Assembly (NCBI GenBank): GCA_036504055.1
Contig: DASXVU010000034.1
Span: 62,001-126,000 of the forward strand
DNA: 64,000 nucleotides
Direction of reading: 5' to 3'
Source of the DNA: Methanomassiliicoccales archaeon
Lineage (GTDB): Archaea > Thermoplasmatota > Thermoplasmata > Methanomassiliicoccales > UBA472
Part shown: in pieces, positions 15,641-32,782 of the stretch
Position numbering within the stretch: the first letter of the stretch is position 1
Layout: each line of letters opens with the position of its first letter
Program-made: the position numbers and the translations under genes
Notes under the pieces: model-generated
The model's input: only the letters and a program-made list of their open reading frames with translations
Told to the model about the DNA's origin: nothing
Database searches by the model: none

Positions 15641-17581
15641 ATGGCTTCTAGCAAGAAATTGGACGCCGTCCAACACGAAGTTCGCTTGGACCCAGGGGGG
15701 TCAACCGCTGAGGTCAGCCCCGCTTCTAAGGAAATTGAAGGAGCCGACCTGAGGTCTTGGCTGGAAGGCGGGGATGATTTTCTTGCTTGGCTCGATGAGG
15801 GTGCCGAAGATCCGCATGCAGCCGATAACAAGCAGGCGGCCGCTGTGGAGGCCAGCTCGGAATACGTCGCCGAGCTCAATGAGAAACTGAAGAAATATGA
15901 GGATGAACTGCGCCTGCTGAAGCAGAAACTGGCAGAGGCCTTTTTGGACAATGCCTCGGACCAGACCGGTAAGGATGTCGAGATCGATCTAGGCCGGAAA
16001 TTGCAGGAGCTGATCGAGGCGAAGGACCAGCTGGCGCTTGAGGTCGATCGGCTTCAGAAACTGAACAACGACATAAAGCAACACTTCGAGCAATCGCTCG
16101 TCAACGTCTCAGAGGATAAATCCTCCCTATTGATGAAGGAGATCGAGCTCAAGGAGAAGGAGTCCAAGCTCCTGACCCGGATGAGGGAGCTCGAGCTCAG
16201 GCAACGTGATGCGTCGAGCTACGCTTCCAAAGAGGTGGAGGCCAACCTGGAGGAGCGTTTCCATACCGAGCTCAGGCAGAAGGAGGCCGAATGGAGATAC
16301 AAGGAGCAACAGCTGCAGGGCCGTATCCAGGACATGGAGAAGGAGCTGCTCCGCCTCTCGATGGACCTGAAGCTCAAGGATGACAAACTCAAGTTGTCCA
16401 ACATGGGAAAGCCGGACATAGAGAAGGCAGTGGCCCAGAAGTACGAGGAGATGATGGCCAAGGAGAAGGAAGTTGCCATCATGCAGGGCGAACTGGACCA
16501 GATGAAGATCCAGATACGCGAGAAGGACGACGAGCTGAAGAAGATCAAGGACGTAATCACGTATAAGGAGGATGAGCTCAACCGCCGAGAGGAGGACATG
16601 ATGTATCGGGAGAAGGTCCTCTCCGGAGAGAAGCGCAAGTTCGAGGAGACCCGGAAGGAGCTCTCGGGCACCGACGAGGTGGAGCTCAAGAAGCGCATCG
16701 AGGAGCTCCGGAACGAGGTTCAGAAGAAGGAAGAGGACCTGCGGGCCAAGGAACGTTTCCTCAACGCCAAGGGCGAGGAGATCCGGATGCGCGAGTCCGG
16801 GCTTATCGAGGACGAGATCAAGGCCAGGGAGAAGGACCGGGTCCTGGAGGCCACCCAGGCCAAGGTGAAGACGGGAAATACCCGTTTGGACGACCTGCTG
16901 CTGGGCGGCATACCCTTCGGCTCCAACATCATGGTCCACGGGCCGCCGTTCGTCGGCAAGGAGGTCATGGTCAATTCATTCGTGGCGGAAGGCCTGAAGA
17001 AAGGCATTCCAGCGTTGTGGGTTATCACCGATAAGACCCCCAAGGACATCCGAGAGGAGATGAAGTTCGTATTGTCTGGCTATGATGAGTACGAAAGGAA
17101 GGGACTGGTCCGATACATCGATGCGTTCTCACGTTCGATGGGTGACGAGTCCAAGGACGAGTTCACCACCTACATAGACGAGCCGACCGACCACGAGAAG
17201 ATATCCGAGGCGGTCGAGAACATAACCAAGGCGTTCCGGGAAACCCACGAGTACTATCGCATGGCTTTCCGTTCCATATCCACCCTGATCGCATATTCCG
17301 ATCCGAACACCGCCTTCCGTTTCCTATCGCCGCTGTGCGGCAAGAGGAAGAGGGACAAGGCGGTCTCCATGTTCACCGTCGAGAAGGGAATGCATGGCGA
17401 GCAGGAGATCCAGATGCTCGGCTCGATCATGGACGGCATGATCGATTTCAAGGTCGACCAGCTGAAGACGTTCTTCTCGATCCAGGGTATCAGCGAGGTC
17501 CAATCCCGTGCCTACATCAGGTACACGTCATCGAAGCATGCCCTGCAGATCGGCTCGTTCGCTCTGGATCACATCAGGTAA
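15641..17581 (+). CDS. Long coiled-coil protein with C-terminal KaiC/FlaH-like RecA domain
   Basis: This 646-residue protein has an acidic N-terminus (SWLEGGDDFLAWLDEGAED). A long, highly charged heptad-rich coiled coil follows, from about 75 to 400. From about 405 it has a RecA/KaiC-superfamily domain opening with TRLDDLLLGGIPFGSNIMV. The P-loop is GPPFVGKE: the Ser/Thr that should follow the invariant Lys is Glu, so nucleotide hydrolysis is doubtful. KaiC-like proteins of this size act as FlaH in the archaellum motor, where FlaH binds ATP beside the FlaI ATPase and FlaJ. The gene lies just before the pilin and secretion ATPase operon on the same strand. I infer a FlaH-like scaffold or switch whose coiled coil could replace the FlaC/D/E proteins. 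A chemoreceptor-type adaptor is the alternative. Confidence 0.78.
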   Translation: MASSKKLDAVQHEVRLDPGGSTAEVSPASKEIEGADLRSWLEGGDDFLAWLDEGAEDPHAADNKQAAAVEASSEYVAELNEKLKKYEDELRLLKQKLAEAFLDNASDQTGKDVEIDLGRKLQELIEAKDQLALEVDRLQKLNNDIKQHFEQSLVNVSEDKSSLLMKEIELKEKESKLLTRMRELELRQRDASSYASKEVEANLEERFHTELRQKEAEWRYKEQQLQGRIQDMEKELLRLSMDLKLKDDKLKLSNMGKPDIEKAVAQKYEEMMAKEKEVAIMQGELDQMKIQIREKDDELKKIKDVITYKEDELNRREEDMMYREKVLSGEKRKFEETRKELSGTDEVELKKRIEELRNEVQKKEEDLRAKERFLNAKGEEIRMRESGLIEDEIKAREKDRVLEATQAKVKTGNTRLDDLLLGGIPFGSNIMVHGPPFVGKEVMVNSFVAEGLKKGIPALWVITDKTPKDIREEMKFVLSGYDEYERKGLVRYIDAFSRSMGDESKDEFTTYIDEPTDHEKISEAVENITKAFRETHEYYRMAFRSISTLIAYSDPNTAFRFLSPLCGKRKRDKAVSMFTVEKGMHGEQEIQMLGSIMDGMIDFKVDQLKTFFSIQGISEVQSRAYIRYTSSKHALQIGSFALDHIR

Positions 17582-17630
17582 AGAAAATTCGGTCAGCCGA
17601 ACAGGATTGGATGTGGTCATCAGAAGACGA

Positions 17631-18056
17631 CTACGCGACCTCGACCCCGCTGCCCGGCTTTATGCCGCCCTTCTTCTGAACGTTGATATGAGGCAACGGG
17701 AAAGGCGGCGGGAGCTTGATGTCACGGGCGACCAACAGGGCCGTGGGAAGGCAATTTGCGACTACGGTATTGTGCACAACGTTCGCCTCGTCCACCGGCA
17801 TCGATCCATCCTTGGACCATTCCGTCAAGATCTCATTGGCGTTACCATCGCATATGAGCTGGCCTTCGATCTTGATGAAGCCCATCCCGGCGTAGTTGGC
17901 TGTGAACCGGAAGTCCACCGAGATCGTCTCATCAGACACCCTGACCACCTGGGTGATGCTGCTGTTCTGATCGATCCGGATATTGGTCATGCGCTCCCCC
18001 GCCTTGGAGAAACGTTTCGCCTCGATGACGCTCATCTCGAAGGACTTGACCTGCAT
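17631..18056 (-). CDS. Conserved archaeal protein of unknown function (141 aa)
   Basis: From the ATG at 18056 (a GTG at 18068 is possible) the product is 141 residues. It has alternating beta strands (TISVDFRFTANYAGMG, KIEGQLICDG) followed by a helical segment ending LVARDIKLPPPFPLPHINV. This matches a small euryarchaeal protein type I recall as SecB-like in fold: paired strands, then a Pro-rich PPPFPLP hinge. I cannot name it with confidence. There is no signal peptide or metal motif. It converges with the coiled-coil gene 49 bases away, and tRNA-Phe follows upstream on the same strand. Confidence 0.65.
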   Translation of the reverse strand: MQVKSFEMSVIEAKRFSKAGERMTNIRIDQNSSITQVVRVSDETISVDFRFTANYAGMGFIKIEGQLICDGNANEILTEWSKDGSMPVDEANVVHNTVVANCLPTALLVARDIKLPPPFPLPHINVQKKGGIKPGSGVEVA

Positions 18057-18126
18057 AATCACGTGCACCCTATCGGTGCAAGCGATATCAAACTTTGTTA
18101 TGCTTCCATAGGATAAGGATAAGAAG

Positions 18127-18199
18127 TGCCGCAGGCCGGGCTCGAACCAGCGACTTCAAGGTCTTCAGCCTTGCACTCTCCCAGCTGAGTTACTGCGGC
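18127..18199 (-). tRNA. tRNA-Phe (GAA)
   Basis: Read on the minus strand, the 73-base gene has a perfect acceptor stem GCCGCAG/CTGCGGC with discriminator A. It has a D arm with the usual AGCTGGGAGAG loop, an anticodon loop CTGAAGA giving GAA, and a T arm with GGTTCGAGCC. CCA is not encoded and no intron is present. Confidence 0.95.
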
Positions 18200-18375
18200 T
18201 TGGCGGTCAGAGAAAGTGGAAGACCATTATAAAGGTTGGCATGTCCAAGTCCCGGGCAAAATGTTCGAAAAATCGACACTTTGAAAGCCTCTTGACATAT
18301 TGCAAAAAAGGGGATGTGGCAGATATATCGCTTTAAGAAAACCTTAATTTCGCAAATAGCCAGACAGCTCAGAAT

Positions 18376-18384
18376 GTTTAAATA
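18376..18384 (+). promoter_or_regulatory. TATA-like box for the pilin/secretion operon
   Basis: gtttaaata lies 44 bases before the pilin ATG at 18428. A gagg ribosome-binding site at 18417-18420, 7 bases before the ATG, supports the start. The upstream 150 bases are AT-rich with no gene. Confidence 0.55.
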
Positions 18385-18427: not shown

Positions 18428-19459
18428 ATGGTCAAAGTTGCCTTTAGAAAAAGGATTCTGAGCAAGTCGAGCCGAGCTCGATGCATGCGCAGGGATGAGG
18501 AGGGAGTAGCCTCGGTGATCGGGACGATCATGGCCTTGCTGATATTCCTGACCTTCATGTCCATGTTCGTTAACACCTACATCCCGATCTGGATGAAGGA
18601 GAACGAACGGCTGCACATGAACGAGGCCCAAAGCCAGATGGGAGAGGTCAAGGGCAAGATCGACAACCTAATCGTCAACACGCTCAACACTCTGATCGTC
18701 AATAAACAGGTCACCGGGGCCAGCTCGATCAATACCTACGAACCGATCACCATGGGAGCGGACGGCATTCCTCTGTTCGCCTCTGCCACCGCTGGTGCGA
18801 TCATTCTGAGACCGGTCGGGACCAGCTCCACCAGCGCTAACGTCCAGTTCAACTACACATCCAACAATCAAAGGATACCCATCAACGAAATGGGCGGTGG
18901 AAAGCTGGAGTTCTACGCGCCTAACCGGTATTACGTCGGCCAGTGGCTGGCGTACGAGAACGGCGCCCTGATCGTGAAGCAGGACGTGGGCGAGGCGATG
19001 AAGGCCTCACCCTCTCTGGAGATAACCAAGTCGGGCAACAGTTTCAACGTGATCTTCACCCAGATCGACATCTACGGGACCAACTCCACCATGGTCGGGA
19101 CCGGTGTGGCCGGTGTCAACATAAACCTCATCTACCTGGACATGCAAACGTATACCCCCCATTGGGGCTCCGATGCGAACCAAAACTCTACCGTATACAA
19201 GTTCAATACGGTATACAACGGGTCGCTCATGAACTTCTTGAAGACGACCTTGAAGGCAGCCGATCCGCTCGCCAACCTCAGCCTACCCGTTAAGATCGGG
19301 AGCACTACCACGTTCACCTTTAAGAACGGAGTCACCAATGAAGCGATACTTTCGGACACGCTCTTGGCGGACAAGTCCCATATGGTCACCCTTCAGGTTA
19401 TTAACACGGGAACGCTGACGCTCAGCCGTGCCTCCGTCCAGGTCGAAATAAGTGTTTAA
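18428..19459 (+). CDS. Type IV pilin-like / archaellin-like secreted protein (343 aa)
   Basis: A basic N-terminus (KKRILSKSSRARCMRRDEEG) is followed by a hydrophobic segment ASVIGTIMALLIFLTFMSMF. This matches the class III signal peptide and N-terminal helix of archaeal type IV pilins, with cleavage expected near Gly-Val before ASVIG. The remaining 300 residues are rich in Thr, Ser and Asn with several N-glycosylation sequons (NST, NGS, NLS), as in extracellular filament subunits. It is the only pilin-like gene in the window and is longer than most pilins, so it could be a minor or anchoring subunit. No prepilin peptidase is nearby. It leads the operon with two ATPases and two membrane platform proteins (12-base gap to the first). 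Confidence 0.78.
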   Translation: MVKVAFRKRILSKSSRARCMRRDEEGVASVIGTIMALLIFLTFMSMFVNTYIPIWMKENERLHMNEAQSQMGEVKGKIDNLIVNTLNTLIVNKQVTGASSINTYEPITMGADGIPLFASATAGAIILRPVGTSSTSANVQFNYTSNNQRIPINEMGGGKLEFYAPNRYYVGQWLAYENGALIVKQDVGEAMKASPSLEITKSGNSFNVIFTQIDIYGTNSTMVGTGVAGVNINLIYLDMQTYTPHWGSDANQNSTVYKFNTVYNGSLMNFLKTTLKAADPLANLSLPVKIGSTTTFTFKNGVTNEAILSDTLLADKSHMVTLQVINTGTLTLSRASVQVEISV

Positions 19460-19471
19460 TGAGGTTCCAGA

Positions 19472-21196
19472 ATGACAACTGAAGCAGATCCGATGGCAGG
19501 CGGCAACGGGAGGCTGGAGCCGCAGTCAAAGGTGAGCACCATGGAGAGGGCCAAGGAGAGCTACATGCGCTTCCTTAAGAAGGTGGCCCCCAACCGGGGG
19601 ATCAAGGTCATGCTCTCGGCCAAGGTAGTGGAACAGAAGCGCCTCCAGAAGGGCTCCCATGTCACCGATATCCCGGAGATCAAGAACCCCAACATCGAGG
19701 TCCTGGAAACATATGCGGTGAAGGAACCTTACAGCTATGTGCGGATCACGTTCAACAATGAGAACAGTGAATACCTGTATGAGGCGATCGAGCCTGAACT
19801 GAACAAGGAGGAAAAGGACCTCCTTGCCCTGGTCAAGGACACCCTGCAACGCACCCTTGGCTACGAGTGGGAGAAGCTCACCTCGCTTGACAAGGAGGAA
19901 TATCTGCGGGAGAGCGTGGACTCGTTCGTCCAGACCCGGGGGATCAAGATCGAACCGATCACCAAGAAGAAGCTCGGTTACTATATCATCCGTGACTTCG
20001 TCGGTCACGGGGTCATCGACGTCATGATGAGTGACGACGACATCGAGGATATCTCCTGTGACGGTTACAACATCCCCATCTTCGTCTCGCACCGGAAGTA
20101 CGAGTCCGTTCGTTCAAACATCATATTCGACAACGAGGACGCCCTGAACAATTTCGTCGTCACCCTGTCACAGAGGAGCGGGAAGCAGATCTCCGTGTCC
20201 AGCCCCATCCTTGACGGAACCACCATCGAGGGCCACCGGGTCCAGGCGACCTATTCGCGTGAGGTGACGACGCGCGGTTCTACATTCACCATCAGGCGGT
20301 TCAAGCACCGCCCGTTCACACCGGTCGACCTGCTGAAGTACAAGACCGTCTCCCCGGAGATGATGGCGTACCTGTGGCTGGGGGTCGAGAACGGCGAATC
20401 GATGATCCTGTGCGGCGGCACGGCGTCCGGCAAGACGTCGGCGCTGAACTCTCTGGCCCTCTTCATCCCGCCAGGCGCCAAGATAGTGACGATGGAGGAC
20501 ACCAGGGAGATCAACCTTCCCCACGATAACTGGATACCGGGCATGACCCGTACCGGTGTGGGGGAGAAGGACAAGGATGGCAAGTCCGCCGGCGAGATCG
20601 ACATGTTCGACCTGGTCCGTGCAGCGCTGAGACAGCGTCCGAACTACATCATCGTCGGAGAGGTCAGGGGAAAGGAGACGTACATAATGTTCCAGGCGAT
20701 GGCGACGGGACACTCCACCTACTCCACCATGCACGCCGATTCGGTGAAGTCCATGGTCAACAGGCTGGAGAACCCGCCCATCAACTGCCCCAGGATATTG
20801 CTGACCGCGTTGCGCAACGTGCTCATCCAGGCACAGGTCCGGGTGGGCAACGACCTTGTCCGTCGCATGAAGCAGGTCATCGAGATCGTCGGTTTCGAAC
20901 CGGAAACGAACGAGCTCATCACCAACACCGTCTATGAATGGGACCAGGCAACGGACCGGTTCATCTACAAGGGCCATTCGTTCCTTTTCGACAAGATCAT
21001 GGAGATGAAGTCGCTCACCCATGATGAGATGATGACCGAGTTCCAGAGGCGGATCGAGATCATCAATTATATGGTGTTCAAGGACATGACCGACTACCGC
21101 AAGATCTGGTCCATCACCAATGCCTATTACAAGGACCCCGAGAAGACGCTCACTAAGGTAAGGAAGGAGACCGAGGAGGGAAAGAATGTCGCCTGA
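19472..21196 (+). CDS. Type II/IV secretion ATPase, VirB11/TadA/FlaI family (first copy)
   Basis: This 574-residue protein has an N-terminal domain of about 290 residues typical of archaeal pilus ATPases. The Walker A motif is GGTASGKTS (315-323). The Asp box is MEDTREINLP (341-350), Walker B lies in YIIVGEVRGKE, and the His box is TYSTMHADS. These hexameric ATPases sit under the membrane and drive filament subunit insertion. It lies 12 bases after the pilin and overlaps the next gene by 11 bases. A second ATPase of the same length lies at 23155, so the operon carries a duplicated motor. The catalytic residues appear intact in both. Confidence 0.92.
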   Translation: MTTEADPMAGGNGRLEPQSKVSTMERAKESYMRFLKKVAPNRGIKVMLSAKVVEQKRLQKGSHVTDIPEIKNPNIEVLETYAVKEPYSYVRITFNNENSEYLYEAIEPELNKEEKDLLALVKDTLQRTLGYEWEKLTSLDKEEYLRESVDSFVQTRGIKIEPITKKKLGYYIIRDFVGHGVIDVMMSDDDIEDISCDGYNIPIFVSHRKYESVRSNIIFDNEDALNNFVVTLSQRSGKQISVSSPILDGTTIEGHRVQATYSREVTTRGSTFTIRRFKHRPFTPVDLLKYKTVSPEMMAYLWLGVENGESMILCGGTASGKTSALNSLALFIPPGAKIVTMEDTREINLPHDNWIPGMTRTGVGEKDKDGKSAGEIDMFDLVRAALRQRPNYIIVGEVRGKETYIMFQAMATGHSTYSTMHADSVKSMVNRLENPPINCPRILLTALRNVLIQAQVRVGNDLVRRMKQVIEIVGFEPETNELITNTVYEWDQATDRFIYKGHSFLFDKIMEMKSLTHDEMMTEFQRRIEIINYMVFKDMTDYRKIWSITNAYYKDPEKTLTKVRKETEEGKNVA

Positions 21197-22226
21197 AGTC
21201 TCAGATCTGTTCTCTAAGGTGGATTCCAGCAAGAGCACCTACATGAAGACCAAGAAGATTGGGGAGCACAAGAAGGAACTGGGACCGCGGGTGATCAGAC
21301 TGCCCGAGGGCGTCGTGCCGGACTATGTCAAGCTCACCAAGTACCAGGAATTCTGCTGGAGGACGATCGGAAAGATCGTGCGTCTCCGGGCCAAGCCCAA
21401 TCCCAAGCAGGAGTCATTGCTCCTACAGGCGCACATGCGCATGAGGCAGGAGGAGTTCGTCGCCTACGTATGGATGACGACCCTGCTGGTCGCCATCATA
21501 ACAATACTGATCAGCGTGTTCTTCGGGGCGGTATTCATAGCCGTGCTGAACATCAGCCCGGCCCTGACCATATTCTTCTCCGTGATGGTGGTGGTGATCC
21601 CCACCCTCATGACCTATGTGATCGTCAACAGCACTCCGGGTTCCAAGGCCAAGGCCCGAAAGCGCGACATCGACAAGCGCATCGGTCCGGCGATGTCGTT
21701 CATCTCCGCAATGGCCTCGGCCGACGTGAACATCGACGTCATCTTCAAGGAAATGTCCCGCCAGCCGATATACGGGGAGATCCAGAAAGAATCAGAATGG
21801 ATCACCAGGGACACGGAGCTTTTGGGCATCGATATCCTGACCGCCATCGGCAAGGCCGCACAACGCACGCCCTCGCAACGATTCCAGGAATTCCTTCAGG
21901 GGGTGGTGACCACCTCCACCTCCGGCGGACAGCTAAAGCCATATTTCCTGCAGAAGGCGGAGCAGTTCGAGAAGGAGCACAAGTTGGAGATCAGGGCCCA
22001 GCTGGAGAGCCTGGGACTGATGGCCGAATCGTTCGTCACCGTGGTCGTCGCATTCCCGCTTTTCCTGATCGTCATCATGGCCATCATGGCCATCGTGCCA
22101 GGCGGCGGGGGAAGTGCCGGGACCACCATAATGCTGCTCTACGCGGTGGTAGGGCTGATGGTGCCGGTATCCCAGTTCGGATTCATCTTCTTCATATGGA
22201 ACTCGACCAAGGAGTCGACAATGTGA
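21186..22226 (+). CDS. Type II secretion F-family membrane platform protein (TadC/FlaJ-like, first)
   Basis: This is a 346-residue protein. Two hydrophobic helices lie at about 93-140 and at least two more near 275-340, with the conserved cytoplasmic helical domain between (PAMSFISAMASADVNIDVIFKEM...). This is the T2SSF repeat layout of TadB/TadC and of one half of FlaJ. The protein anchors the pilus base and couples to the ATPase. A gagggaaag ribosome-binding site just before the ATG supports the start inside the previous gene. The cytoplasmic extension of about 90 residues before the first helix is long. It works with the next gene as a split platform. Confidence 0.88.
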   Translation: MSPEVSDLFSKVDSSKSTYMKTKKIGEHKKELGPRVIRLPEGVVPDYVKLTKYQEFCWRTIGKIVRLRAKPNPKQESLLLQAHMRMRQEEFVAYVWMTTLLVAIITILISVFFGAVFIAVLNISPALTIFFSVMVVVIPTLMTYVIVNSTPGSKAKARKRDIDKRIGPAMSFISAMASADVNIDVIFKEMSRQPIYGEIQKESEWITRDTELLGIDILTAIGKAAQRTPSQRFQEFLQGVVTTSTSGGQLKPYFLQKAEQFEKEHKLEIRAQLESLGLMAESFVTVVVAFPLFLIVIMAIMAIVPGGGGSAGTTIMLLYAVVGLMVPVSQFGFIFFIWNSTKESTM

Positions 22227-22235: not shown

Positions 22236-23153
22236 ATGGCCACTGAAAAGAACCTGGATATAATGGACCTGAAGCAGCTCAAGAACGATAAGAGCGACCT
22301 CACCAAGACCATGCTGATCATCGGCATCGTCGTAGGCGTGATGTTCTTCCTCATCGGATTCCTGGACGCCATCGGCGGGCTGGAAACGCCATTGAACTGG
22401 ATCGACTATGTGGCGCTGGGCCTGATGGGCGTGTCCGGACCATACGGTTTCTACACCACCTACAGGCACAAGAAGGTCAAGAACATCGAGGCACGCCTTC
22501 CGGACTTCCTCAGGGATGTCGCCGAGGCAGGCCGTTTCGGAATGACCCTGGCGGAGGCGATCAAGGTCTCATCCCGAGGCAGGTATGGGCCGCTCACCCC
22601 GGAGATCCAGCGCATGGCCGCCCAGATCGAATGGGGTGTTCCGGCCGCCGAAGCTCTTAAACTGTTCGCGGAACGGGTCAACACGCCGTTGGTCAACCGT
22701 ATGATATCGATCATCATCAAGGCCAACGACGCGGGCGGCAGCGTTGCCGATGTCCTCACCATGGTCGCGCACGACTCTCGCGAGACCATGCTCGACCAGA
22801 GCGAGCGCAGCCTGGAGATGTCGACCTACACCGTCGTCATATACGTGGCGTTCGCGGTGTTCCTGGCCACCATCTTCATCCTGAACGCCACCTTCCTTCC
22901 GAAGATGGCGGAGGCCGGAGCGCAAGTGGCTGCGGGAGCGGAGGCGGCCGGCATCACGAACATGCCCGCCACCATCAAGACCGAGATCATCCCTCAGATC
23001 CAATTGATATTCGTCATATCGGTCGTCATCCACGCCTTCGGGGACGGCATACTGGCGGGCGTGCTGCAAGACGGCCGCATCGCCAATGGGCTGAGGCATT
23101 CCTTCATCATGCTGCTGCTCGGCCTGCTCGGAACCAAGTTGGGGGGTACCTGA
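22236..23153 (+). CDS. Type II secretion F-family membrane platform protein (TadB-like, second)
   Basis: This 305-residue protein has two helices near 25-75 (MLIIGIVVGVMFFLIGFLD and YVALGLMGVSG). A T2SSF cytoplasmic domain follows (LPDFLRDVAEAGRFGMTLAEA... ANDAGGSVADVL), then two or three C-terminal helices. The domain is the classic F-type motif. It starts 9 bases after the first platform gene and ends 1 base before the second ATPase, so translation is coupled. Together the pair corresponds to the two halves of an archaellum FlaJ or to TadB plus TadC. Confidence 0.88.
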   Translation: MATEKNLDIMDLKQLKNDKSDLTKTMLIIGIVVGVMFFLIGFLDAIGGLETPLNWIDYVALGLMGVSGPYGFYTTYRHKKVKNIEARLPDFLRDVAEAGRFGMTLAEAIKVSSRGRYGPLTPEIQRMAAQIEWGVPAAEALKLFAERVNTPLVNRMISIIIKANDAGGSVADVLTMVAHDSRETMLDQSERSLEMSTYTVVIYVAFAVFLATIFILNATFLPKMAEAGAQVAAGAEAAGITNMPATIKTEIIPQIQLIFVISVVIHAFGDGILAGVLQDGRIANGLRHSFIMLLLGLLGTKLGGT

Positions 23154-23154: not shown

Positions 23155-24879
23155 ATGGAAGCTTCAAAAGAACCGATGGCTGAGATCGATGCGGTCCTGA
23201 AGGGGGATCACGAGCCCGCGGTCAAGATGACCGCCATGCAGGGGTTCAACAGTAAGTACCTCGGGTTCCTGCTGAAGGTGAAGGGCCGGCCCATGAAGGT
23301 CATGCTCCCTTCCGGAAAGATACAGCCTGAGCTCGACTCGGAGGTCATCACCGAGGTGCCGAAGATAGCGGATGTCAACGTGGACGAGGTCGAGGTGACC
23401 CCCGTTTTCAAGCCATATTCGTTCGTGCGGATCAAGTTCGACAATACTTCCTCCGAATACATCTATGAGGTCATAGAGCCGCACCTCACTGAGGACGAGA
23501 CCTACCTGCTGGATATGCTGAAGTCCTCCCTCATCGTCACGCTCAACCTGCCGGTCAGGAAGACGGGCAAGGAGAAGATGGACATACTGCGCAAGGCGAC
23601 CGACGAGCTCCTCAGGATCTTCGACGTCAGCCCGAATGCGCTGTCCAAGGAACGCATATTGTACTACCTGCGGCGGGACTTCATCGGTTACGGAGCGATA
23701 GACGTGATGATGCTCGACCCGAACGTAGAGGATTGTTCCTGCGACGGCGTCAACATCCCGCTCTACATATTCCACCGTAAATACGGTTCGATCAAGTCCA
23801 ACGTCAAGTTCGAGAAGGAGCTGGAACTGGACTCGTTCGTGGTCTGGCTGGCCCAAAAGTGCGGAAAGCACATCTCGGTCGCCAGCCCGATGCTGGACGC
23901 CACGATCCCGGACGGGAGCAGGCTCAACGCGACGCTGGGCATGCACGTCACCAAGAGGGGATCGTCCTTCACCATCAGGCGGTTCAAGGAGAATCCGTTC
24001 ACGCCCATCGACCTGCTCAAGTTCAAGACCATGAGCACGGAGATGATGGCCTATCTTTGGATATCCACCGAGTTCGGTTCGTCCATGCTGGTCTGCGGCG
24101 GTACCGCTTCCGGCAAGACGACCACCCTGAACGCGGTGCTGCTGTTCATTCCGCCGCAGAAGAAGATCATCAGCATTGAGGACACCAGGGAACTGAACCT
24201 GCCCCACGAGAACTGGATACCTGGACTGACCAGGGAAGGTTTCGGTGGAAAGAAGATGAACAGCACCGGATCGGTGGACATGTTCGACCTGCTGACCGCG
24301 GCGCTGAGGCAGCGTCCAGATTACCTGATGGTCGGTGAGGTGAGAGGCAAGGAAGCATACGTCGTCTTCCAGGCCATGGCCACCGGCAAGACGTCCTATT
24401 CCACGTTCCACGCAGAGGACGTCCAGGCGATGGTGCACAGGATGGAGAACGACCCGATCAACCTGCCCAGGGCGTTGATGACCGCACTGGACATCGTCAT
24501 GCTGCAGGCCCAGGTAAAGGTCGGCACGAAGATGACCAGGAGGGTCAAGTCCCTGACCGAGATCGTCGGCATGGACTCGGAGACCGGGGAACTGATCACC
24601 AACGCGGTGTTCAGCTGGAACCCGGCGGACGACACCTTCAACTTTTCCGGTCATTCGTACATCTTCGAGAAGGTGAGGACCATCAAGTCCTGGTCCCCCA
24701 GGGAGATGGAGCGTGAGGTGAAGCGCCGGGTCGAGATCCTTGAGTACATGAAGAAGATCGGCGTGGACAACTACAAACAGGTGGCCAGGATTATCTCGGC
24801 ATACTACAAGAACCCGGAGCGCGCCATGAAGGAGATCCGGGAGAAGATGACCGCCACACAGCTGCCCCCTCCCCAGTGA
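23155..24879 (+). CDS. Type II/IV secretion ATPase (second copy)
   Basis: This 574-residue protein is paralogous to the ATPase at 19472 along its whole length, with the same domain order: N-terminal region, Walker A GGTASGKTT near 314-322, Asp box IEDTRELNLP, GEVRGKE and the His box SYSTFHAED. The His box and the linker after the Asp box differ from the first copy, as expected for specialised motors rather than a recent duplicate. Two ATPases on the same platform suggest either different partners or opposing activities. The stop codon lies inside the loop of a strong terminator. Confidence 0.92.
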   Translation: MEASKEPMAEIDAVLKGDHEPAVKMTAMQGFNSKYLGFLLKVKGRPMKVMLPSGKIQPELDSEVITEVPKIADVNVDEVEVTPVFKPYSFVRIKFDNTSSEYIYEVIEPHLTEDETYLLDMLKSSLIVTLNLPVRKTGKEKMDILRKATDELLRIFDVSPNALSKERILYYLRRDFIGYGAIDVMMLDPNVEDCSCDGVNIPLYIFHRKYGSIKSNVKFEKELELDSFVVWLAQKCGKHISVASPMLDATIPDGSRLNATLGMHVTKRGSSFTIRRFKENPFTPIDLLKFKTMSTEMMAYLWISTEFGSSMLVCGGTASGKTTTLNAVLLFIPPQKKIISIEDTRELNLPHENWIPGLTREGFGGKKMNSTGSVDMFDLLTAALRQRPDYLMVGEVRGKEAYVVFQAMATGKTSYSTFHAEDVQAMVHRMENDPINLPRALMTALDIVMLQAQVKVGTKMTRRVKSLTEIVGMDSETGELITNAVFSWNPADDTFNFSGHSYIFEKVRTIKSWSPREMEREVKRRVEILEYMKKIGVDNYKQVARIISAYYKNPERAMKEIREKMTATQLPPPQ

Positions 24880-25075: not shown

Positions 25076-28000
25076 TCACTCCTTCTTTTGCTCCTCTGGC
25101 ACCGATTCAGGCGAGTGCTCTGTCTCAGGGTTGTCCTTCACTACCTTCTTGGGGACCATCTTGCGGTCCGATGACCGCTTGACGATCTTACGGAAGGGCT
25201 TGGCCTGTTCTCCAGACTCTGCCGCCGATGCCATTTCCAGAGCCTTGTCGAACACGGTGCCGCACTTGGAGCATATGGTCGCGCCCTTCGGGTTGAGGGT
25301 GCCGCATGTCGGGCAGGGCAGGGAGCTTGCCTTTCGGTCCTCCTCCTTCTTGGCCACCCAGGCCTCAAAGGTCACATACGCCGGCTCGGTCTTGAGCCAG
25401 TCCATGAACTTGTCCTCGGAGTACTTCTTCCCCAGGGCGGCCTTGGCCTGTTCCCTGAACCCGTTGATGTACTCGTCGTACTGCCTCCTCATGGAGGACA
25501 TGTAGTCGTCGGTGGATATCTCCTCAACCGGCTCGGTCATGAACTTCGCTCCACATTCGGGGCATTCCTTCGACCTGGACGGTATCCAGGTACCGCACTC
25601 GGAGCACTTTGCGGTATCCGCCTCGAACTCGGTGCCGCAGCGTGGGCAGCGCTTCGAGCTCTCCGGGATCAGCGCGCCGCATTCGCCGCACTCCACCATC
25701 TTGCCCAATCCATACTTGTACAGATAGACCGAGAAGACCAGGATGACCGCAATCACTATGATCGCGATGATCGCGAACACCCAGAGCGGGACACCCTGTG
25801 CGTTGAATATCTTCATGACGTTGATCGGGACCGAATTCGAGTAGACCGCACCTGAGTTCATCGTCACGCTCACCGAGTGCGAGCCGGACCGGTCCGTCGG
25901 CACGAATACGAAGCTGCTATAGGCCCCGGTGCCGTCGGTCTTGGTCGTGATAGCGTCACCCACTGGCAGACCGGCAGAGTCCAGCAGCCTGATGGTCAAC
26001 GATTGGTTGGCCAGGGCATAGCTGCCGTCCTTGTTGGTGATCATTCCGGACACCGGTATCGATTCCCCCGGTTGGAAGTCTGTCTTGGAACCGACACTGA
26101 TGGTGATCATCGGGTTAGGTATGTTGACCGCGAACGCCCGGCTGTCGATGTTGTTGGTGTAGTTGGATTCCTCGATCACGTGCCTCGAGTTCATCTCCAC
26201 CACCAAAGAATAGGTGCCAGATGTGACGTTCACCACCCACGGGAAGGATATCTGGACCGATGCGCCTCCGGACAGGTCCCGGATCATGCTCATCAGGAGG
26301 TGCTTGTAGTTGTCGCTGTCCTTCACGTATATCTCGAGGACCGCCCCGTTCGCTGCCTTCAGGCCTTCATTGCCCATTACAAATGTTATGTCTATCGTCT
26401 GGCCTTGGACCGCTTGCGACGTCGAGTTACTGCCGGACGACGATTTCACGGACACACCGGCCGGGAACCAGAGGTCAGCCCGGTTGTCCACCACGAGCAG
26501 CGAGCTGGAGATTATGTTGTTCTCATAGGTCATCTCCATGACCGGGGTGTCATTGCCGTGGGTGAAGGGATTTACCTCCACCGTGATCATGCGGCTCTGG
26601 TTACGGCCCGATCCATCGACGGAGGCGGCGATCCAGCCCATCTGTATGTCGGTTGTCGCACCTGCGTTGATGCTCGGGACCACCACATCACCGATCTTCG
26701 TGCCGGTGCTAGCAGTTCCCAGCCAGAAACGGACCAGGAAGTCCGATGCTACGTATTCGCCCGTGTTCATCACCGTCGCGCTAAGCATAACGGAGTCTCC
26801 GATGAACACCTGAGTGACCACCGACCCGGAACTCGACAGCTTGAACTGGAGGTTCGTGGCCACCAGGTCCGGGTAGTTCATGACCTTGACGATGACGCCG
26901 GCAATGTTGTTGCCCTTGGAGGCCTCCAGGAGTGTGTTGTTCTCATCGATCACGACTGTTATGTTATGATCGCCCGGCAACATGTGCTGCCAGGTAGCGA
27001 AGGCCACTCCGGTCTGGCCGCCGCGTATGGCGGGTAAGGTGAAATTGCCGATGGAGATCCTGAGGCCGTGGAACACATCGTAGAAGCGGATCACGGCCGT
27101 CTGGTCCATATCATCTCCGCCATTCACGATGTCCGCCCGGATGGACACCGTGGAGTTGGTCTCGACGATGGCCGGATTGATGGAGATCTGGCCGGGGAGA
27201 ACGCTCAGATCGGGGACACCCTGGACCGATACGGTCGTTTGGTTCCAGTTGTTGCTGCGGTTCAGTTGCGGGATGGCTCCGAACGGGTCGACGGTGACAT
27301 TGAGGGTATGGTTCCCGACCGGATAGACCACGGTCCAGAGGACCGTTATGTTCGAGTGCTCGCCTGGGGCGATCGACGTGATCGTCTGGTCCGCAATTAT
27401 GGCACCGGTGGTCAGGTCCTTGAAGCGGACAAGAACGCTGTAAGCGTTCACCACTCCATTATTTGTTATGTTGGCAATTAGGCCCACCGAAGCGCCCCTG
27501 GCGGGGCTATAATCGGACGCCCAGAAGGGCGGGTCCAGCTCGGGCAAGGCGCCGAGGATGTTCACATTGATCGCGATGTCGCTCTTGGCGATCTCGCTGC
27601 CATTGTCATTGTTGATGAGCCCGTCCGGAGAGACCTGGGTGTAACGTGCGTTGATGGCTCCGGTGCTATCGTATCGGACACCGTGGAACCAGTAGGTGGC
27701 GTTCACCCGGTAGTTGTCATTGAAATGGGATGCGCCATAGCGATTGATCCAATCGGATAGCAGGTTGAACGTGGCCTTACCGTCCGCACCGGTGATGGCG
27801 GTTGCATAGGACATACCGGTCGACCGGTCCAGTTCGACGAACGCTCCGGCTATCCCGTGGACCAGTGTCCCGTCCATGACCGTCACGGTCAACAGACGGT
27901 AGCTCCAGGCCCTGGCATCGTCCTGGAGGTGAATCGCCGGGATGGATACGCTCGTCAGCACTGCCGTCGCCTGACCCCCGAAGTTGGCTATGCCAGCCTG

Positions 28001-30697
28001 CAAAGTGACGTTGGTGGCGGTCAGGTTGCCGAACGATGTGGAGGGGGCAGTGATGTTCGAGGCCACAAAATTGCTGTCGGTCAGGGTGACCTTCGAATGA
28101 CCATCAATATTGATGTTGACGAATCCGGTCAGGATCGATCCGTTACGGGCCGACATGACAGCGTTGTCCTTCAGGAATATCGTCATCTCACTGTTCGCGG
28201 TTATCGTTCCAGACGTGAGCTCTATCGACCCTGATCCGGAGACGGTTATCTTGAACTGGTTCGGGTGATCATTGAGGATGCTAAGAAGGCCGGATGTGAT
28301 GATCAGCCTGGCATTGTCCCTGACCTCGATGTCGCCTTTTATCGACACGGGGGCATCGCCGCTGATGACCCATACCATTGTTCCGGTGAGAATCGTCGGT
28401 CCGTGGATCACCGACAGCGTCGGGAACATCACATCCCTTTCATCGACATTATTGATCATATTAGGGAAATGCCTGAAGTTGGTCGATATTCCTCCATTGC
28501 TGTCATCCATCACATAAAGGACCTGGCTCTGGGTCCGGTACTTGAAGACCAGGTTATAATCGAATGCCTTTCCGTTCCTTAGGTTGGAGCTGTTCAGCAC
28601 ATCGCTGAGCAACGGGATCGTTACCATTCCGGAGGTGGCGGTCCTGTTGAAATTGGCTGCGGTCTTGCCTAGATAGTTGAGAATGGCCTGTGGCGGTGCC
28701 GCCACTGCGCCTGATTGATCTAGATAATATGCTATGGCTCCAGTGCCCGCATTACTGGACGTCACACCGACGTTTCCAACCGGTATTAGTTGGTTGTCGG
28801 TAACTTCTAAGGAAACCCAACGGTAGAGTGCTACTTGTGGTTGAGTTTGAATATTAATGAACATACGATCAAAATGGATCGTTGCCCCACCGGCGTTAGC
28901 AAATGACAGTGTAAGTGTTCTCAGTTTGTCGATGGAATTTACACCATTAGCATAAAGATCGAAAGGTCCAATAGTTGTTTGACCTAGGTTCAGAGAAGGT
29001 CTCATGTTGGTATTCTTCAGTGCTGACCCACCAAATGAATACTGGATATAGTTCGTTTGAGCGTATGAGGCTTCAGTATAGTATACAAATGATACCGTTA
29101 AACTCTTTATCGAGCCCGTCAATTCTCCAATATTATACTTTACGATATTCATTGTTTGTCCGATGGATAGATCGTAAGTCAGAGCATCGCCTTGAGCGTA
29201 TAGCCCATTAACATTCTCTCCAGTTCCATCGTTCGTACCATTCGCCGTAATTACTTTTGCCAGATTCCTTGTTTTGAAGACGTTGGTACCGAAGTATCCG
29301 CCGGTGCTGTTCTGGACGGTCATGCCGTACAAGTTGGCGATCGACTGATCCAAGGCAACTAGTTTGTGGTAGGCGCCTTGTGTCGCATCCGTCCCGTTGT
29401 TCTCATTGATGTTGTTGAGCGGGATGTAGGTGTCGGCAACGACCAGGTTCGTCGATCCGCCTATGGTTATGTTGCGGTAGGTCGGCAGCTTCAGATCGAT
29501 CGTTACCCAGATCCTGTCGATGTAAACGTTGCCAGCCTTGGTGTTGGTGTAGTCCAGTGTCATCTTGCTTAGGCTCTGAGCGGCCATGTCGGGCAAGACT
29601 TGATCGTCGGTGACGTTAAAGTTCGTTCCAGAAGGATCGTCAGCCCGGAACGTGGGGACAATGTCAATTGCGGTGGGCGTCGCGGTCCCATACTGCGGAG
29701 TGTAGGAGAATACGCCGTGAGAACCGGCCGCCGCACTTGTGCTGGTCTTATAGCTCACGTGTAGAACGATGCCTCCAGGGACGATGTCCGTTGCCTCGAA
29801 CACCAATCCGCCCATGTCGAAACCGGTCGTGACAAGTCTCTGGGTGGCTGCGACGGTCACGTTCCTGGTGTCGTTCATTGTCATCGACAGTGCATTCTGG
29901 CCAGTGACTGTGCTTAAAATAGGATCGAACGCGGCGTTGACATCCCTCTCCAGGAAGTAGTCCACGTACTGTCGAGCCTTATTGTCCTTGGCGAACTGGT
30001 AATTGAAACTGTAAGGTCCCGGATTGGCCGTAACGGAGTTGTATGTTCCGTTGTCGTACATGTTCAGGACCCTGGAGCCGATCATGGATACCTCGCTGGA
30101 CATGAACAGCATGACCGGGGAACTGCTGAAAACCTTGGTCGGGAAGTAGACCGAATTGTAAGCCAGCTCCGCTCCGGAAATGGTGGAATCGATCAGTGAG
30201 AATCTGGCATCGTCGACCAGAAGGTGTCCCGAGAACGATATGTTCGACATCCGTGACTCGAGGTAGCCACCGTGCCTGACAACCACTCCTAGTGCTGGAA
30301 TGATACTGCTTCTGATGGTGTCAACGGTCAATGTTGAGTTGTCGAGTATCAGTATGCCGCCATCCTCTATGGTCAGGGTCAATGCATTGATACCCGCCCC
30401 AACCGGTGTGGCTCCTGAATATGATGAAGAGAATATCACTGTTGAATTGATGATCTGGACCATGCCGCCGGCCCTTATGGTGAGGCTATTTTGGATCCAT
30501 TTCCCGCCATCATCGTGGATCGTGAAGTTATCACCATATCCGGTACCAACTATTGTGTCCCCATTCAGGACCTCCCCCTGGGCCGATACCCCCACCTCAG
30601 GTACGGCAATGAGCAATACCCCGAGGAAGGACGAGATCACCATGCACCATACGATTGCGAAGCTAACAAGCTTGTTGAACCCAGCACCCAGCTTCAT
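25076..30697 (-). CDS. Giant CARDB-repeat surface protein with TM helix and cytoplasmic zinc-ribbon tail
   Basis: This is an 1873-residue protein. An N-terminal signal or anchor (FAIVWCMVISSFLGVLLIAV) is followed by about 700 residues of beta-rich repeats. At least four CARDB-like domains occur between about 1050 and 1500 (for example NYPDLVATNLQFKLSSSG and DLSVLPGQISINPAIV), and a last beta domain ends near 1630. One hydrophobic helix (VFAIIAIIVIAVILVFSVYLY, about 1635-1655) precedes a cytoplasmic tail. That tail has two adjacent zinc ribbons (CGECGAL...CPRCG and CSECGTW...CPECG), a helical segment, a third ribbon (CPTCGTL...CSKCG) and a basic, Lys-rich end. The ectodomain is full of N-glycosylation sequons. 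It is an envelope protein; the intracellular ribbons suggest it binds a cytoplasmic partner. It lies opposite the pilus operon. Confidence 0.82.
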   Translation of the reverse strand: MKLGAGFNKLVSFAIVWCMVISSFLGVLLIAVPEVGVSAQGEVLNGDTIVGTGYGDNFTIHDDGGKWIQNSLTIRAGGMVQIINSTVIFSSSYSGATPVGAGINALTLTIEDGGILILDNSTLTVDTIRSSIIPALGVVVRHGGYLESRMSNISFSGHLLVDDARFSLIDSTISGAELAYNSVYFPTKVFSSSPVMLFMSSEVSMIGSRVLNMYDNGTYNSVTANPGPYSFNYQFAKDNKARQYVDYFLERDVNAAFDPILSTVTGQNALSMTMNDTRNVTVAATQRLVTTGFDMGGLVFEATDIVPGGIVLHVSYKTSTSAAAGSHGVFSYTPQYGTATPTAIDIVPTFRADDPSGTNFNVTDDQVLPDMAAQSLSKMTLDYTNTKAGNVYIDRIWVTIDLKLPTYRNITIGGSTNLVVADTYIPLNNINENNGTDATQGAYHKLVALDQSIANLYGMTVQNSTGGYFGTNVFKTRNLAKVITANGTNDGTGENVNGLYAQGDALTYDLSIGQTMNIVKYNIGELTGSIKSLTVSFVYYTEASYAQTNYIQYSFGGSALKNTNMRPSLNLGQTTIGPFDLYANGVNSIDKLRTLTLSFANAGGATIHFDRMFINIQTQPQVALYRWVSLEVTDNQLIPVGNVGVTSSNAGTGAIAYYLDQSGAVAAPPQAILNYLGKTAANFNRTATSGMVTIPLLSDVLNSSNLRNGKAFDYNLVFKYRTQSQVLYVMDDSNGGISTNFRHFPNMINNVDERDVMFPTLSVIHGPTILTGTMVWVISGDAPVSIKGDIEVRDNARLIITSGLLSILNDHPNQFKITVSGSGSIELTSGTITANSEMTIFLKDNAVMSARNGSILTGFVNINIDGHSKVTLTDSNFVASNITAPSTSFGNLTATNVTLQAGIANFGGQATAVLTSVSIPAIHLQDDARAWSYRLLTVTVMDGTLVHGIAGAFVELDRSTGMSYATAITGADGKATFNLLSDWINRYGASHFNDNYRVNATYWFHGVRYDSTGAINARYTQVSPDGLINNDNGSEIAKSDIAINVNILGALPELDPPFWASDYSPARGASVGLIANITNNGVVNAYSVLVRFKDLTTGAIIADQTITSIAPGEHSNITVLWTVVYPVGNHTLNVTVDPFGAIPQLNRSNNWNQTTVSVQGVPDLSVLPGQISINPAIVETNSTVSIRADIVNGGDDMDQTAVIRFYDVFHGLRISIGNFTLPAIRGGQTGVAFATWQHMLPGDHNITVVIDENNTLLEASKGNNIAGVIVKVMNYPDLVATNLQFKLSSSGSVVTQVFIGDSVMLSATVMNTGEYVASDFLVRFWLGTASTGTKIGDVVVPSINAGATTDIQMGWIAASVDGSGRNQSRMITVEVNPFTHGNDTPVMEMTYENNIISSSLLVVDNRADLWFPAGVSVKSSSGSNSTSQAVQGQTIDITFVMGNEGLKAANGAVLEIYVKDSDNYKHLLMSMIRDLSGGASVQISFPWVVNVTSGTYSLVVEMNSRHVIEESNYTNNIDSRAFAVNIPNPMITISVGSKTDFQPGESIPVSGMITNKDGSYALANQSLTIRLLDSAGLPVGDAITTKTDGTGAYSSFVFVPTDRSGSHSVSVTMNSGAVYSNSVPINVMKIFNAQGVPLWVFAIIAIIVIAVILVFSVYLYKYGLGKMVECGECGALIPESSKRCPRCGTEFEADTAKCSECGTWIPSRSKECPECGAKFMTEPVEEISTDDYMSSMRRQYDEYINGFREQAKAALGKKYSEDKFMDWLKTEPAYVTFEAWVAKKEEDRKASSLPCPTCGTLNPKGATICSKCGTVFDKALEMASAAESGEQAKPFRKIVKRSSDRKMVPKKVVKDNPETEHSPESVPEEQKKE
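28790..29270 (-). other. Low-GC module inside the giant surface protein gene
   Basis: Across this stretch GC falls sharply: bases 29041-29100 have 22 G+C of 60 and 29101-29160 have 20 of 60. Bases 27241-27300 of the same gene have 36 of 60. It encodes about residues 476-636, a segment starting near the NLAKVITANG stretch and ending near FDRMFINIQT. The reading frame is unbroken. The base change suggests that the module was acquired or recombined separately. Confidence 0.6.
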
Positions 30698-30786
30698 TAT
30701 AACACCTGATTGACGACCATTGGTATTTTGGAAAATACTGTTTGAGTCTATAAATAGATGGTTACTTCTATCACACTTTGAAACAA

Positions 30787-30817
30787 ATGTGGCGCGTTAA
30801 TATCATATTAGCCACAT
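30787..30817. repeat. Interrupted palindrome upstream of the giant surface protein
   Basis: Outer arms atgtggc (30787-30793) and gccacat (30811-30817) flank inner arms taatat and atatta around a single central c. Only a 4-base gcgt interrupts the left side. It lies 99 bases after the 391-aa coiled-coil gene ends and about 40 bases upstream of the TATA-like ctatttata (30750-30760, minus strand) of the surface protein gene. An operator is the likely role; a terminator is possible. Confidence 0.5.
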
Positions 30818-30885
30818 ATGTAAAATCAAATTATCATTTCGCGAAAAATGGGAGCATAAGAATAAGGATAGGGAGGGGAGAGACC

Positions 30886-32061
30886 TCACTTCCTCTTGAT
30901 TATCTTTCGTATAGAAACGGAGCGTTTCACTTCTGATCTCTTTTCCTCTTCCTGCTCCTTGTGCTCCTCGGCCGGTTCCTCCTCGACGTGCTTCTCTTCC
31001 TCGGCCGGTTCCTCGATGTGTTTCGGCTCAGGCTCTTCCTTCTTCGGTTCGGGCTTGCGAGAGTCCTTCTTCTTTGGGGCCTCGACCAGTTTGCCGTCCT
31101 TGAGCTTCGCGTCGCAGGCCCAGCAGTGTTCTGACTTGGAATCGATGATGGTGGCGCAGTTGGGGCACTCGAACTCCTTCCGCTCCTCGGCCGGTGCCTC
31201 CTGGGCGATCTCCTCTTCCTCGGCCGGTGCCGGTTCCTCTGCCTTTTCTTCGGGCTCCTCGATGGGCGCCGGGATCGACTTCATCTGAGGGGCATCGTCC
31301 TCGACACTGGCCTCCATATGGGCGGCGTTGTCCTCCTCCATCATCTCCTCGGGCTTGGCCTCCTCGAAGGCCGGCTCGGGAATGACCGGTCTGACCGTTG
31401 TCTTGGCGCGGCGTCCCTCCATCGCTTCCCTCTGGGTGAGGGCCTTCTCCCTTTCCGTCAGGGTGCGCTCCCATTCGACGAAGCGCTTCTGCTCGTCCAA
31501 CATGAGCTTCTTGCTGTTGGCCAGCAGATCTCCCTGCTCTTCCACGACCTTGATCTTGGCGAGCAGTTCCTCCCTTCTGGCGCTCATCGACTCTAACATC
31601 TTCTTCAGGTCTGACTCTCCGGAAAGCATGCGCTCTTCCATCTTGGAAATGCGTTCTCCGGAGTCACGCAACCGCTTTTCATAGCCGGAGGTGAGCTCGG
31701 TCAGCCGGAGCAGTTCGGACTCCTGCCTTGCGATCTCCCCCTGACGCCGGTCCAGGTTCTCCCGGCTTGCCTGGATGTCCTCCTCCCTGCCCTGCAGGTC
31801 GGTCTGCATCCGGTTCAGGTCCTCCTGGAATTTGGCGACCCGGTTCTCCCTGGGCGCAAGGTCCGACTCTCGCTTCTTGAGCTCGGACTCCTTTCTCCCC
31901 AGGTCTCCCTCCCTGTCGGCCAGATCGCGCTCGTCGGAATGCAGCCTGGACTCCATCCCATCGAGGTCCTCGCGACGCTTCTTGAGGTCTGCCTCTTGGT
32001 TCTTGATCTTGTCCTTGAACTCCTCTATGACCTGCCATATCGGTACTGAATCATCTGCCAT
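30886..32061 (-). CDS. Coiled-coil protein with one zinc ribbon and a basic C-terminus
   Basis: The product is 391 residues from the ATG at 32061, preferred because a gcgggga stretch precedes it; a start at 32076 adds five residues. Residues 5-200 are a highly charged coiled coil with a repeating RE-rich pattern. A linker of acidic Glu/Pro repeats follows. Near residues 297-315 there is a single zinc ribbon (CPNCATI...CWACDAKL). The C-terminus is Glu/Lys-rich and ends VSIRKIIKRK. That end resembles FRKIVKR in the cytoplasmic tail of the neighbouring giant surface protein. It follows the KaiC-like gene by 19 bases and probably shares its transcript. I infer a cytoplasmic scaffold that links the KaiC-like ATPase to the surface protein. 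Confidence 0.72.
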   Translation of the reverse strand: MADDSVPIWQVIEEFKDKIKNQEADLKKRREDLDGMESRLHSDERDLADREGDLGRKESELKKRESDLAPRENRVAKFQEDLNRMQTDLQGREEDIQASRENLDRRQGEIARQESELLRLTELTSGYEKRLRDSGERISKMEERMLSGESDLKKMLESMSARREELLAKIKVVEEQGDLLANSKKLMLDEQKRFVEWERTLTEREKALTQREAMEGRRAKTTVRPVIPEPAFEEAKPEEMMEEDNAAHMEASVEDDAPQMKSIPAPIEEPEEKAEEPAPAEEEEIAQEAPAEERKEFECPNCATIIDSKSEHCWACDAKLKDGKLVEAPKKKDSRKPEPKKEEPEPKHIEEPAEEEKHVEEEPAEEHKEQEEEKRSEVKRSVSIRKIIKRK

Positions 32062-32080
32062 TGGTATTCCCCGCATTTCC

Positions 32081-32782
32081 CTAGGCCAATGTCGGCCCTA
32101 GAATCGTGACTCCATGATCGCCCACTTCCATCGTGTGGCGTTCCATCGAATGCTCGGTGGCCCTCATCTTCTCAACGCGCATGTACCGTACCAGCTTTCC
32201 CCGGGTACGGTCCAGGCCTAGCTCGATGATCCCGTCCACCAGGAATCCCTCGTTCCCGAGCAGGTCGGAAGGTGTGCCGGGATTGCGCTCCATGACGATG
32301 AACGACATGAGATTGTAATCCCTTAGCGTCTTGAAGAAGTAGAACATCTTCTTGCGCATGCCCTTGACATCGTCCATCAGGGAATACAGCGCCCCGAGCG
32401 AGTCCAGGCTGAAGACTGTGAACCGGTCTCCATGCTTCTTCTTGTAGTATCCTATGGTCTGTATTATGAATTGGAGATAATCGGTCGGCGAATCCACCTC
32501 TACGATCTCGTCAAGTTCGCGCAGGTCGGTGAAATCGGAGATCTCGAGGTTCGATGTCAATTTCAGGTTCAGCGACCTCATGTTCCTGATGTGGCTGTCG
32601 GCCGTCTCCTCTAGAGTGATGTAAAGGCCGAACTCGTTGGTCTTGTCCAGATATGAGGACATCATCGAGTAGCAGAACGAGGTCTTCATGGAGCCTGGGG
32701 GGCCGGTGATCAGCACCACCTTGGGGACCTCGATGTCCGTCCTGAATACCTTGTCCAAACCTTGAATGGAATTCCTGAACAC
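32081..32782 (-). CDS. Stand-alone KaiC-like / RAD55-type ATPase
   Basis: This is a 233-residue single RecA-fold domain. The Walker A is GPPGSMKTS (27-35), with Met replacing the usual second Gly; Walker B is in FTVFSLDSLGALY (about 120-132). The beginning SIQGLDKVF matches the KaiC/RAD55 entry strand. Members of this group signal or regulate through ATP-dependent oligomers. The start is GTG at 32782, preceded about 45 bases upstream on the minus strand by the AT stretch gtttattac. It is the first gene of a three-gene minus-strand unit with the coiled-coil/zinc-ribbon gene and, after a gap, the surface protein. It is the second KaiC-like ATPase in this locus. Confidence 0.83.
   Translation of the reverse strand: MFRNSIQGLDKVFRTDIEVPKVVLITGPPGSMKTSFCYSMMSSYLDKTNEFGLYITLEETADSHIRNMRSLNLKLTSNLEISDFTDLRELDEIVEVDSPTDYLQFIIQTIGYYKKKHGDRFTVFSLDSLGALYSLMDDVKGMRKKMFYFFKTLRDYNLMSFIVMERNPGTPSDLLGNEGFLVDGIIELGLDRTRGKLVRYMRVEKMRATEHSMERHTMEVGDHGVTILGPTLA

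Follow-up and report, generated by a model that had tools for sequence, protein, structure and literature searches.

A window of 64,000 nucleotides (the whole stretch of DNA that was analysed), part of a 2.66-Mb, 49-contig genome of the order Methanomassiliicoccales (G000, contig C34), carries the genes of a type IV pilus of the CdiP kind, which has two ATPases and a split platform, together with a set of accessory genes whose functional linkage to that pilus is well supported. Gene order, co-occurrence and joint loss over many families tie the pilus to the C-terminal tail of a CARDB surface protein, to a coiled-coil protein with a KaiC-like domain (kccA) and, in part of the phylum, to a stand-alone KaiC-like ATPase (KaiC) paired with a coiled-coil/zinc-ribbon protein (CCZn). 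The closest loci among named relatives are those of Methanomassiliicoccales and Methanomassiliicoccaceae. A sequence-only reading of this DNA had named the main genes, and an open reading frame (ORF) check with Pfam and NCBIfam matches finds all of them where it had placed them, with the families it had assigned; u145 and a tRNA-Phe gene are additions to its list. The features of the locus are:

15641..17581 (+), kccA, coiled coil and KaiC-like domain, 646 aa; PF06745 5.5e-21, DUF7504 1.2e-12
17631-18068 (-), u145, ORF for a 145-aa protein without family match
18126-18199 (-), tRNA-Phe, which with u145 separates kccA from the pilus genes
18428..19459 (+), type IV pilin-like protein, 343 aa, class III signal DEEG followed by VASVIGTIMALLIFL; assigned from its conserved N-terminus and operon position
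19472..21196 (+), ATPase1 (CdiPE1-like); PF00437 (T2SSE) 1.9e-31, Walker A GGTASGKT
21186..22226 (+), N-terminal half of the platform (CdiPFa-like); PF00482 (T2SSF), ArlJ-model residues 5-244
22236..23153 (+), C-terminal half of the platform (CdiPFb-like); PF00482, ArlJ-model residues 267-541
23155..24879 (+), ATPase2 (CdiPE2-like); PF00437 6.8e-35
25076..30697 (-), CARDB surface protein, 1873 aa; PF07705 3.8e-35, zinc ribbons 6.6e-12; putative cytosolic part at 25079-25711
30886..32076 (-), CCZn, coiled coil and zinc ribbon; weak zinc-ribbon match, 0.0017
32081..32782 (-), KaiC, stand-alone KaiC-like ATPase, 233 aa, single domain; PF06745 7.6e-36 (124 bits)

A pilus with two ATPases and one split platform

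The five genes from pilin to ATPase2 are separated by only 12, -11, 9 and 1 bases, so by inference they form a single transcription unit. They hold what marks an archaeal type IV pilus, namely a secretion ATPase with a Walker A motif, a T2SSF platform and a pilin with a predicted class III signal, and also what marks the CdiP type, a pair of paralogous ATPases flanking a split platform. The sequence-only reading had described two ATPases around two platform proteins. The two ATPases stand, but the two platforms become one: both genes match T2SSF above the cut-off (1.8e-12 and 8.2e-20), and because they match the N- and C-terminal halves of the 555-residue single-chain ArlJ model, they encode one platform in two pieces.

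The two ATPases are ~50% identical, and Walker A is intact in all of their relatives (123/123 for ATPase1, 118/118 for ATPase2); both are apparently active. A tree of 53 sequences places them in separate, well-supported (starred) clades across the class that branch largely in parallel; the duplication is therefore old, and both copies have been retained. The pilin-like protein has no Pfam or NCBIfam match; its N-terminus, DEEG followed by VASVIGTIMALL, a predicted class III signal peptide, is conserved over many loci, and its gene heads the pilus operon in all loci compared. This core is of a type already known, and is read here from its genes.

The idea that the locus is a variant or precursor of the archaellum, built on the FlaH-FlaI-FlaJ logic that the earlier reading saw in it, has some ground, as ArlI and ArlJ are the best-matching models for the ATPases and the platform and kccA has a KaiC/FlaH fold. 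However, the locus proteins score under all curated archaellum cut-offs (414 and 445 bits for the ATPases against 550 for ArlI, 23.2 bits for kccA against 215 for ArlH), the platform is split and the ATPases are two. A family-model search of the locus (15-33 kb) found no archaellin, ArlF or ArlG, an absence that the earlier reading had itself reported, and a complete archaellum operon lies at another place in the same genome (L035, G000:C18:8001-24817), with archaellin, ArlF, ArlG, ArlH, ArlI (672 bits, cut-off 550) and a single-chain ArlJ. Membership in the archaellum is rejected, and we give the idea as a whole hardly any chance; kccA is ArlH-like in its place but is no member of ArlH. The archaellum operon is present although Methanomassiliicoccus has been described as non-motile (PMC4858521).

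Accessory genes conserved with the pilus and lost together

The minus-strand half of the locus runs gyrB-gyrA-KaiC-CCZn-CARDB and ends opposite the pilus half, tail to tail (24879/25076). Being convergent, the halves cannot be one operon, yet they stay together. The order kccA, u145, pilin, ATPase1, platform, platform, ATPase2, CARDB, CCZn, KaiC, gyrA persists throughout the Methanomassiliicoccales, and also in more distant Thermoplasmata on contigs of sufficient length. ATPase2 and the CARDB tail are convergent in 69 of the 72 loci that have both, usually within a few hundred bases, a count that includes some loci fetched twice from two collections and so does not stand for 72 independent genomes. 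On the other side of the operon, kccA-type domains, including shorter versions, adjoin the pilus ATPase in other families and outgroups too. The earlier reading had offered as its own refutation that the halves would not be conserved together in other genomes; the shared synteny and a strong co-occurrence across the phylum bear it out on this point.

Co-occurrence was surveyed in 341 Thermoplasmatota genomes. A match was counted below an E value of 1e-195 (ATPase1), 1e-20 (CARDB cytosolic tail), 1e-75 (kccA) or 1e-90 (KaiC), cut-offs that were set once the gaps in the match lists had been seen. ATPase1 and the CARDB tail are both present in 42 genomes and both absent from 290, while five have the pilus only and four the tail only (Fisher p 2e-43, kinship ignored); three of the four tail-only genomes (G316, G328, G361) do have a pilus ATPase match, but a weaker one. 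For ATPase1 and kccA the corresponding figures are 42 with both, 5 and 10 with one of the two, and 284 with neither. None of the gene set is found in most of family f2, nor in G026. The p-values, ~1e-38 to 1e-43, take no account of common descent.

Support that is not subject to this problem comes from two observations. The pilus and the CARDB tail co-occur even when they lie on different contigs or far apart (in families such as f7 and f12, and in genomes such as G104, G138 and G338). Furthermore, G035 and G038 keep the pilus but have lost the CARDB tail, CCZn, KaiC and kccA together; gyrA follows directly after ATPase2, and u145 and the flanking gyrase are retained, so accessory genes were lost from both sides of a retained operon in one lineage. 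These observations also bear on whether the accessory genes are merely independent neighbours that share a stable region, from tRNA-Phe to gyrase, and have unrelated functions. The housekeeping flanks (tRNA-Phe, gyrA, gyrB), the convergence of the halves, which are not one operon, and the way that KaiC-CCZn tracks gyrA in several families would all fit such an arrangement. It does not account for the tie between CARDB tail and pilus where they are unlinked, for the genes that vanish on both sides in G035 and G038 while gyrase and u145 stay, or for the tail-to-tail contact that recurs under other flanks, as in G132 (1,486,778 bp), where ATPase2 and the CARDB tail are one base apart and the flanking genes are different. 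We consider unrelated neighbours improbable.

Several neighbouring genes can be noted in passing. Both within the order and in outgroups, u145 keeps its position between kccA and the pilus genes. A seven-transmembrane (7TM)-PAS histidine kinase lies upstream, at 13301-15355 (-), but the other loci of this set lack it, so it does not belong to the conserved neighbourhood. The GyrA ORF at 32948-37105 (-), 1385 aa, has an insert that reads like an intein, as judged without a family search, and the MCM ORF at 61719-63902 (-) contains an intein domain (PF14890).

The accessory proteins and a possible control layer

The CARDB protein has a signal peptide, an ectodomain and a single C-terminal transmembrane segment followed by positive residues, after which come a double zinc ribbon, three helices, a third zinc ribbon and a disordered basic tail, predicted to be cytosolic. 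This last part is 45-62% identical among relatives, as against about 25-40% for the ectodomain, and is best explained as a docking domain that would face the cytosol. Foldseek with the tail returned no significant match (best E 0.03); brief alignments with NZF-type zinc fingers and with one ArnAB chain are not taken as evidence.

The earlier reading had called the coiled-coil protein kccA a KaiC-like ATPase, and here it probably does not hold up. In all 18 aligned members Walker A reads GPPFxGKE, with Glu in place of Ser/Thr, and the Walker B Asp is replaced by Arg; E57 and R160 of the domain alignment are invariant. The KaiC-like domain is nonetheless ~70% identical even in distant lineages, its predicted structure has the RecA/KaiC fold (pLDDT 73) with KaiC, PH0284 and FlaH as the nearest solved structures, and homologs outside the order carry N-terminal zinc ribbons and helix-hairpin-helix (HhH) domains. 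kccA is thus probably a pseudo-ATPase scaffold.

KaiC, in contrast, keeps its catalytic motifs, with Walker A GPPGSMKT, the catalytic Glu pair in LEE and Walker B LDSLGAL, as in the KaiC-family ATPases, and the alignment shows 65-86% identity. It is not of the clock type, being a single 233-aa domain where the clock protein has two, and it scores 52 bits against the 546 of the circ_KaiC model. CCZn adjoins KaiC in 21/21 loci that have both, including loci away from the pilus. The sequence-only reading had coupled a filament machine to KaiC-like and zinc-ribbon partners; a type IV machine with conserved partners stands, but KaiC is not its heart. We rejected KaiC as a core part, as it is absent from f7, f14, f22 and other lineages with pilus and CARDB. 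Because it is missing from many such lineages and is often linked to gyrA, KaiC-CCZn is an accessory layer, an add-on.

Some further observations concern these two genes and their surroundings. KaiC-CCZn lies next to gyrA in several families (L157, L133, L140, L160), a possible tie to DNA gyrase, while in other families KaiC can have a different set of neighbours. In family f26 (L153:1083-8035, L155:8357-15234) KaiC is followed by a small protein, which ends in RRVIKKRE in L153, and then by a helical protein of ~1757 aa. The window also encodes a 358-aa protein with a double zinc ribbon and helical repeats at 42395-43471 (-), whose homologs are divergent from KaiC in L137 and L152; it may be part of the same network.

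CCZn and the CARDB tail share a basic C-terminal motif. CCZn ends here in SVSIRKIIKRK, generally in SIRKI[IV][KR][RK]K or a variant of it; in the CARDB tail there are one or more [KR][KR][IV][IVL][KR][KR] stretches. When distinct ORFs of at least 100 aa with CxxC in the fetched loci were scanned over their last 60 residues, the motif turned up in 43 CARDB-tail proteins, in 23 CCZn proteins and in no other of 498; the 66 carriers are related within two families, so the count shows specificity rather than independent origin. When the whole genome was scanned with a DNA pattern for the CCZn-type motif, CCZn and one other place were found, and the reversed control gave 3. The motif is present in all KaiC-bearing families examined as against about 2-3 of 7 KaiC-less ones (Fisher p 0.003-0.015; tallied by hand with a relaxed motif, kinship ignored). 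The shared tail suggests a common partner of CARDB and CCZn, which may be KaiC. It need not bind KaiC, because some KaiC-less lineages keep it, and for the same reason a role purely as a KaiC dock is unproven.

Taken together, these features could describe a CdiP-type pilus with a cytosolic control layer of its own, a model to which, taken whole, we assign about an even chance. The split platform, driven by two ancient paralogous ATPases, would assemble the pilin, and kccA would be a scaffold on or near the motor, in the position that ArlH holds in the archaellum. The CARDB protein would be a surface adhesin or envelope anchor whose zinc-ribbon domain, if cytosolic, would couple it to the motor. 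KaiC and CCZn would be an optional ATP-dependent switch in KaiC-bearing lineages, including the present one, and CCZn and CARDB may dock on the same protein through their common basic motif. The analysis shows the genes with their conservation, co-occurrence, co-loss and motif states; which proteins touch, which side the zinc ribbons face and any flow of information from surface to motor, or the reverse, are inferred. CARDB might sense contact or might anchor the pilus; sequence cannot tell which of the two it does, nor the direction of flow, and the contact signalling at the surface that the earlier reading proposed is plausible but unproven.

Several observations weigh against this model. 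The placement of the zinc ribbons in the cytosol has one transmembrane segment and its charges as its sole basis. No more than 19 of the 46 genomes with a CARDB tail have KaiC, and the tail motif persists in KaiC-less lineages (the A. boonei-like L121, L122 and L125; f2 g23). KaiC-CCZn lies beside gyrA in f11, f17, f18 and the order, and at L157:7963-11249 it adjoins gyrA away from the pilus, so that it may be tied to the pilus only loosely. Part of this would agree with a purely structural role, in which CARDB is an adhesin or an S-layer-like anchor of the basal body, the zinc ribbons and kccA are scaffold, and KaiC-CCZn is a separate module that happens to lie nearby. S-layer-like proteins and adhesins are reported as usual partners of archaeal type IV pilus loci (Makarova et al. 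2016, PMC4858521), KaiC-CCZn is dispensable and gyrA-linked, and kccA lacks catalytic residues. A structural role alone sits poorly with the common C-tail motif that ties CARDB to CCZn, with the retention of all catalytic motifs in KaiC and with the joint loss of four accessory genes in G035 and G038, and we regard it as possible but unlikely.

The strongest form of the control-layer model, a novel transmembrane signalling route in which a large variable ectodomain acts through cytosolic zinc ribbons and the short basic docking motif that it has in common with a coiled-coil adaptor on KaiC and the KaiC-fold scaffold to gate the two-ATPase pilus, is more doubtful still. If true, archaea would have a way of sensing contact that involves no two-component or chemotaxis proteins and that gates, for example, extension versus retraction.

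Comparison with known pili and KaiC-family proteins

We are not aware of any dedicated cytosolic control circuit for archaeal pili, nor, for most archaeal KaiC proteins, of any partner. The locus yields a short list of testable protein contacts, and cultured species appear to carry part of the set or the related CdiP pilus. It also offers a route to ask why such pili retain two ATPases. Pilus retraction with a single ATPase has been described in Sulfolobus (PMC11178785). Our literature search turned up no paper that names the CARDB/zinc-ribbon tail, the degenerate KaiC protein on a coiled coil or KaiC-CCZn as partners of this pilus, although PMC5717392 (Makarova et al. 2017, on KaiC) or PMC11332145 may mention them; the pilus thus probably has regulatory partners of its own, which seem to be undescribed so far.

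The archaellum (ArlB-FGHIJ) has a homologous motor ATPase and platform and a KaiC-fold protein beside its motor genes, but the present locus has no archaellin, ArlF or ArlG, two ATPases, a split platform and a degenerate KaiC-fold partner on a coiled coil. KaiC-family ATPases of arCOG01171 and arCOG01174 occur near archaeal type IV pilus loci (PMC4858521), ArlH is a KaiC homolog in the archaellum motor, and the KaiC homolog CirA of Haloferax affects motility (PMC13286277). These regulators resemble the present system in tying a KaiC-family ATPase to pilus loci or motility, but are reported with KaiB-like or DEATH-like partners or a transcription factor where we find a coiled-coil/zinc-ribbon partner that shares its C-tail with a surface protein. 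The flagellum factor HP0958 of Helicobacter, cited in PMC4858521, combines a coiled coil and a zinc ribbon beside a filament system, and is offered as an analogy only.

The Epd/Tad pili also build their platform from two genes, but their major pilins are short and they rely on one main ATPase together with FlaH or TadZ (PMC6668835), whereas here ATPase paralogs flank the platform and the sole pilin of the operon has 343 aa; no search was made for pilins farther away. A locus of Aciduliprofundum boonei was noted earlier to combine two ATPases with a single pilin gene (Makarova et al. 2016, PMC4858521).

The nearest known system is the CdiP pilus of Cuniculiplasma divulgatum (2025), which combines the ATPases CdiPE1 and CdiPE2 with a platform encoded in two halves (PMC12448462). 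Genome G184 has two ATPases that match ATPase2 of the window at 41% and 39% with a split platform between them; it has no CARDB-tail or KaiC match at the survey thresholds, and its one kccA-like protein, of 317 aa and without a coil, lies far from the pilus locus. The CdiP paper (PMC12448462) describes no KaiC-like scaffold, CARDB/zinc-ribbon protein or KaiC-CCZn with this pilus, and the CdiP pilins lie ~500 kb from the machinery, whereas the pilin here is in the operon. What the two systems share is an ATPase pair and a platform split into genes for its N- and C-terminal halves.

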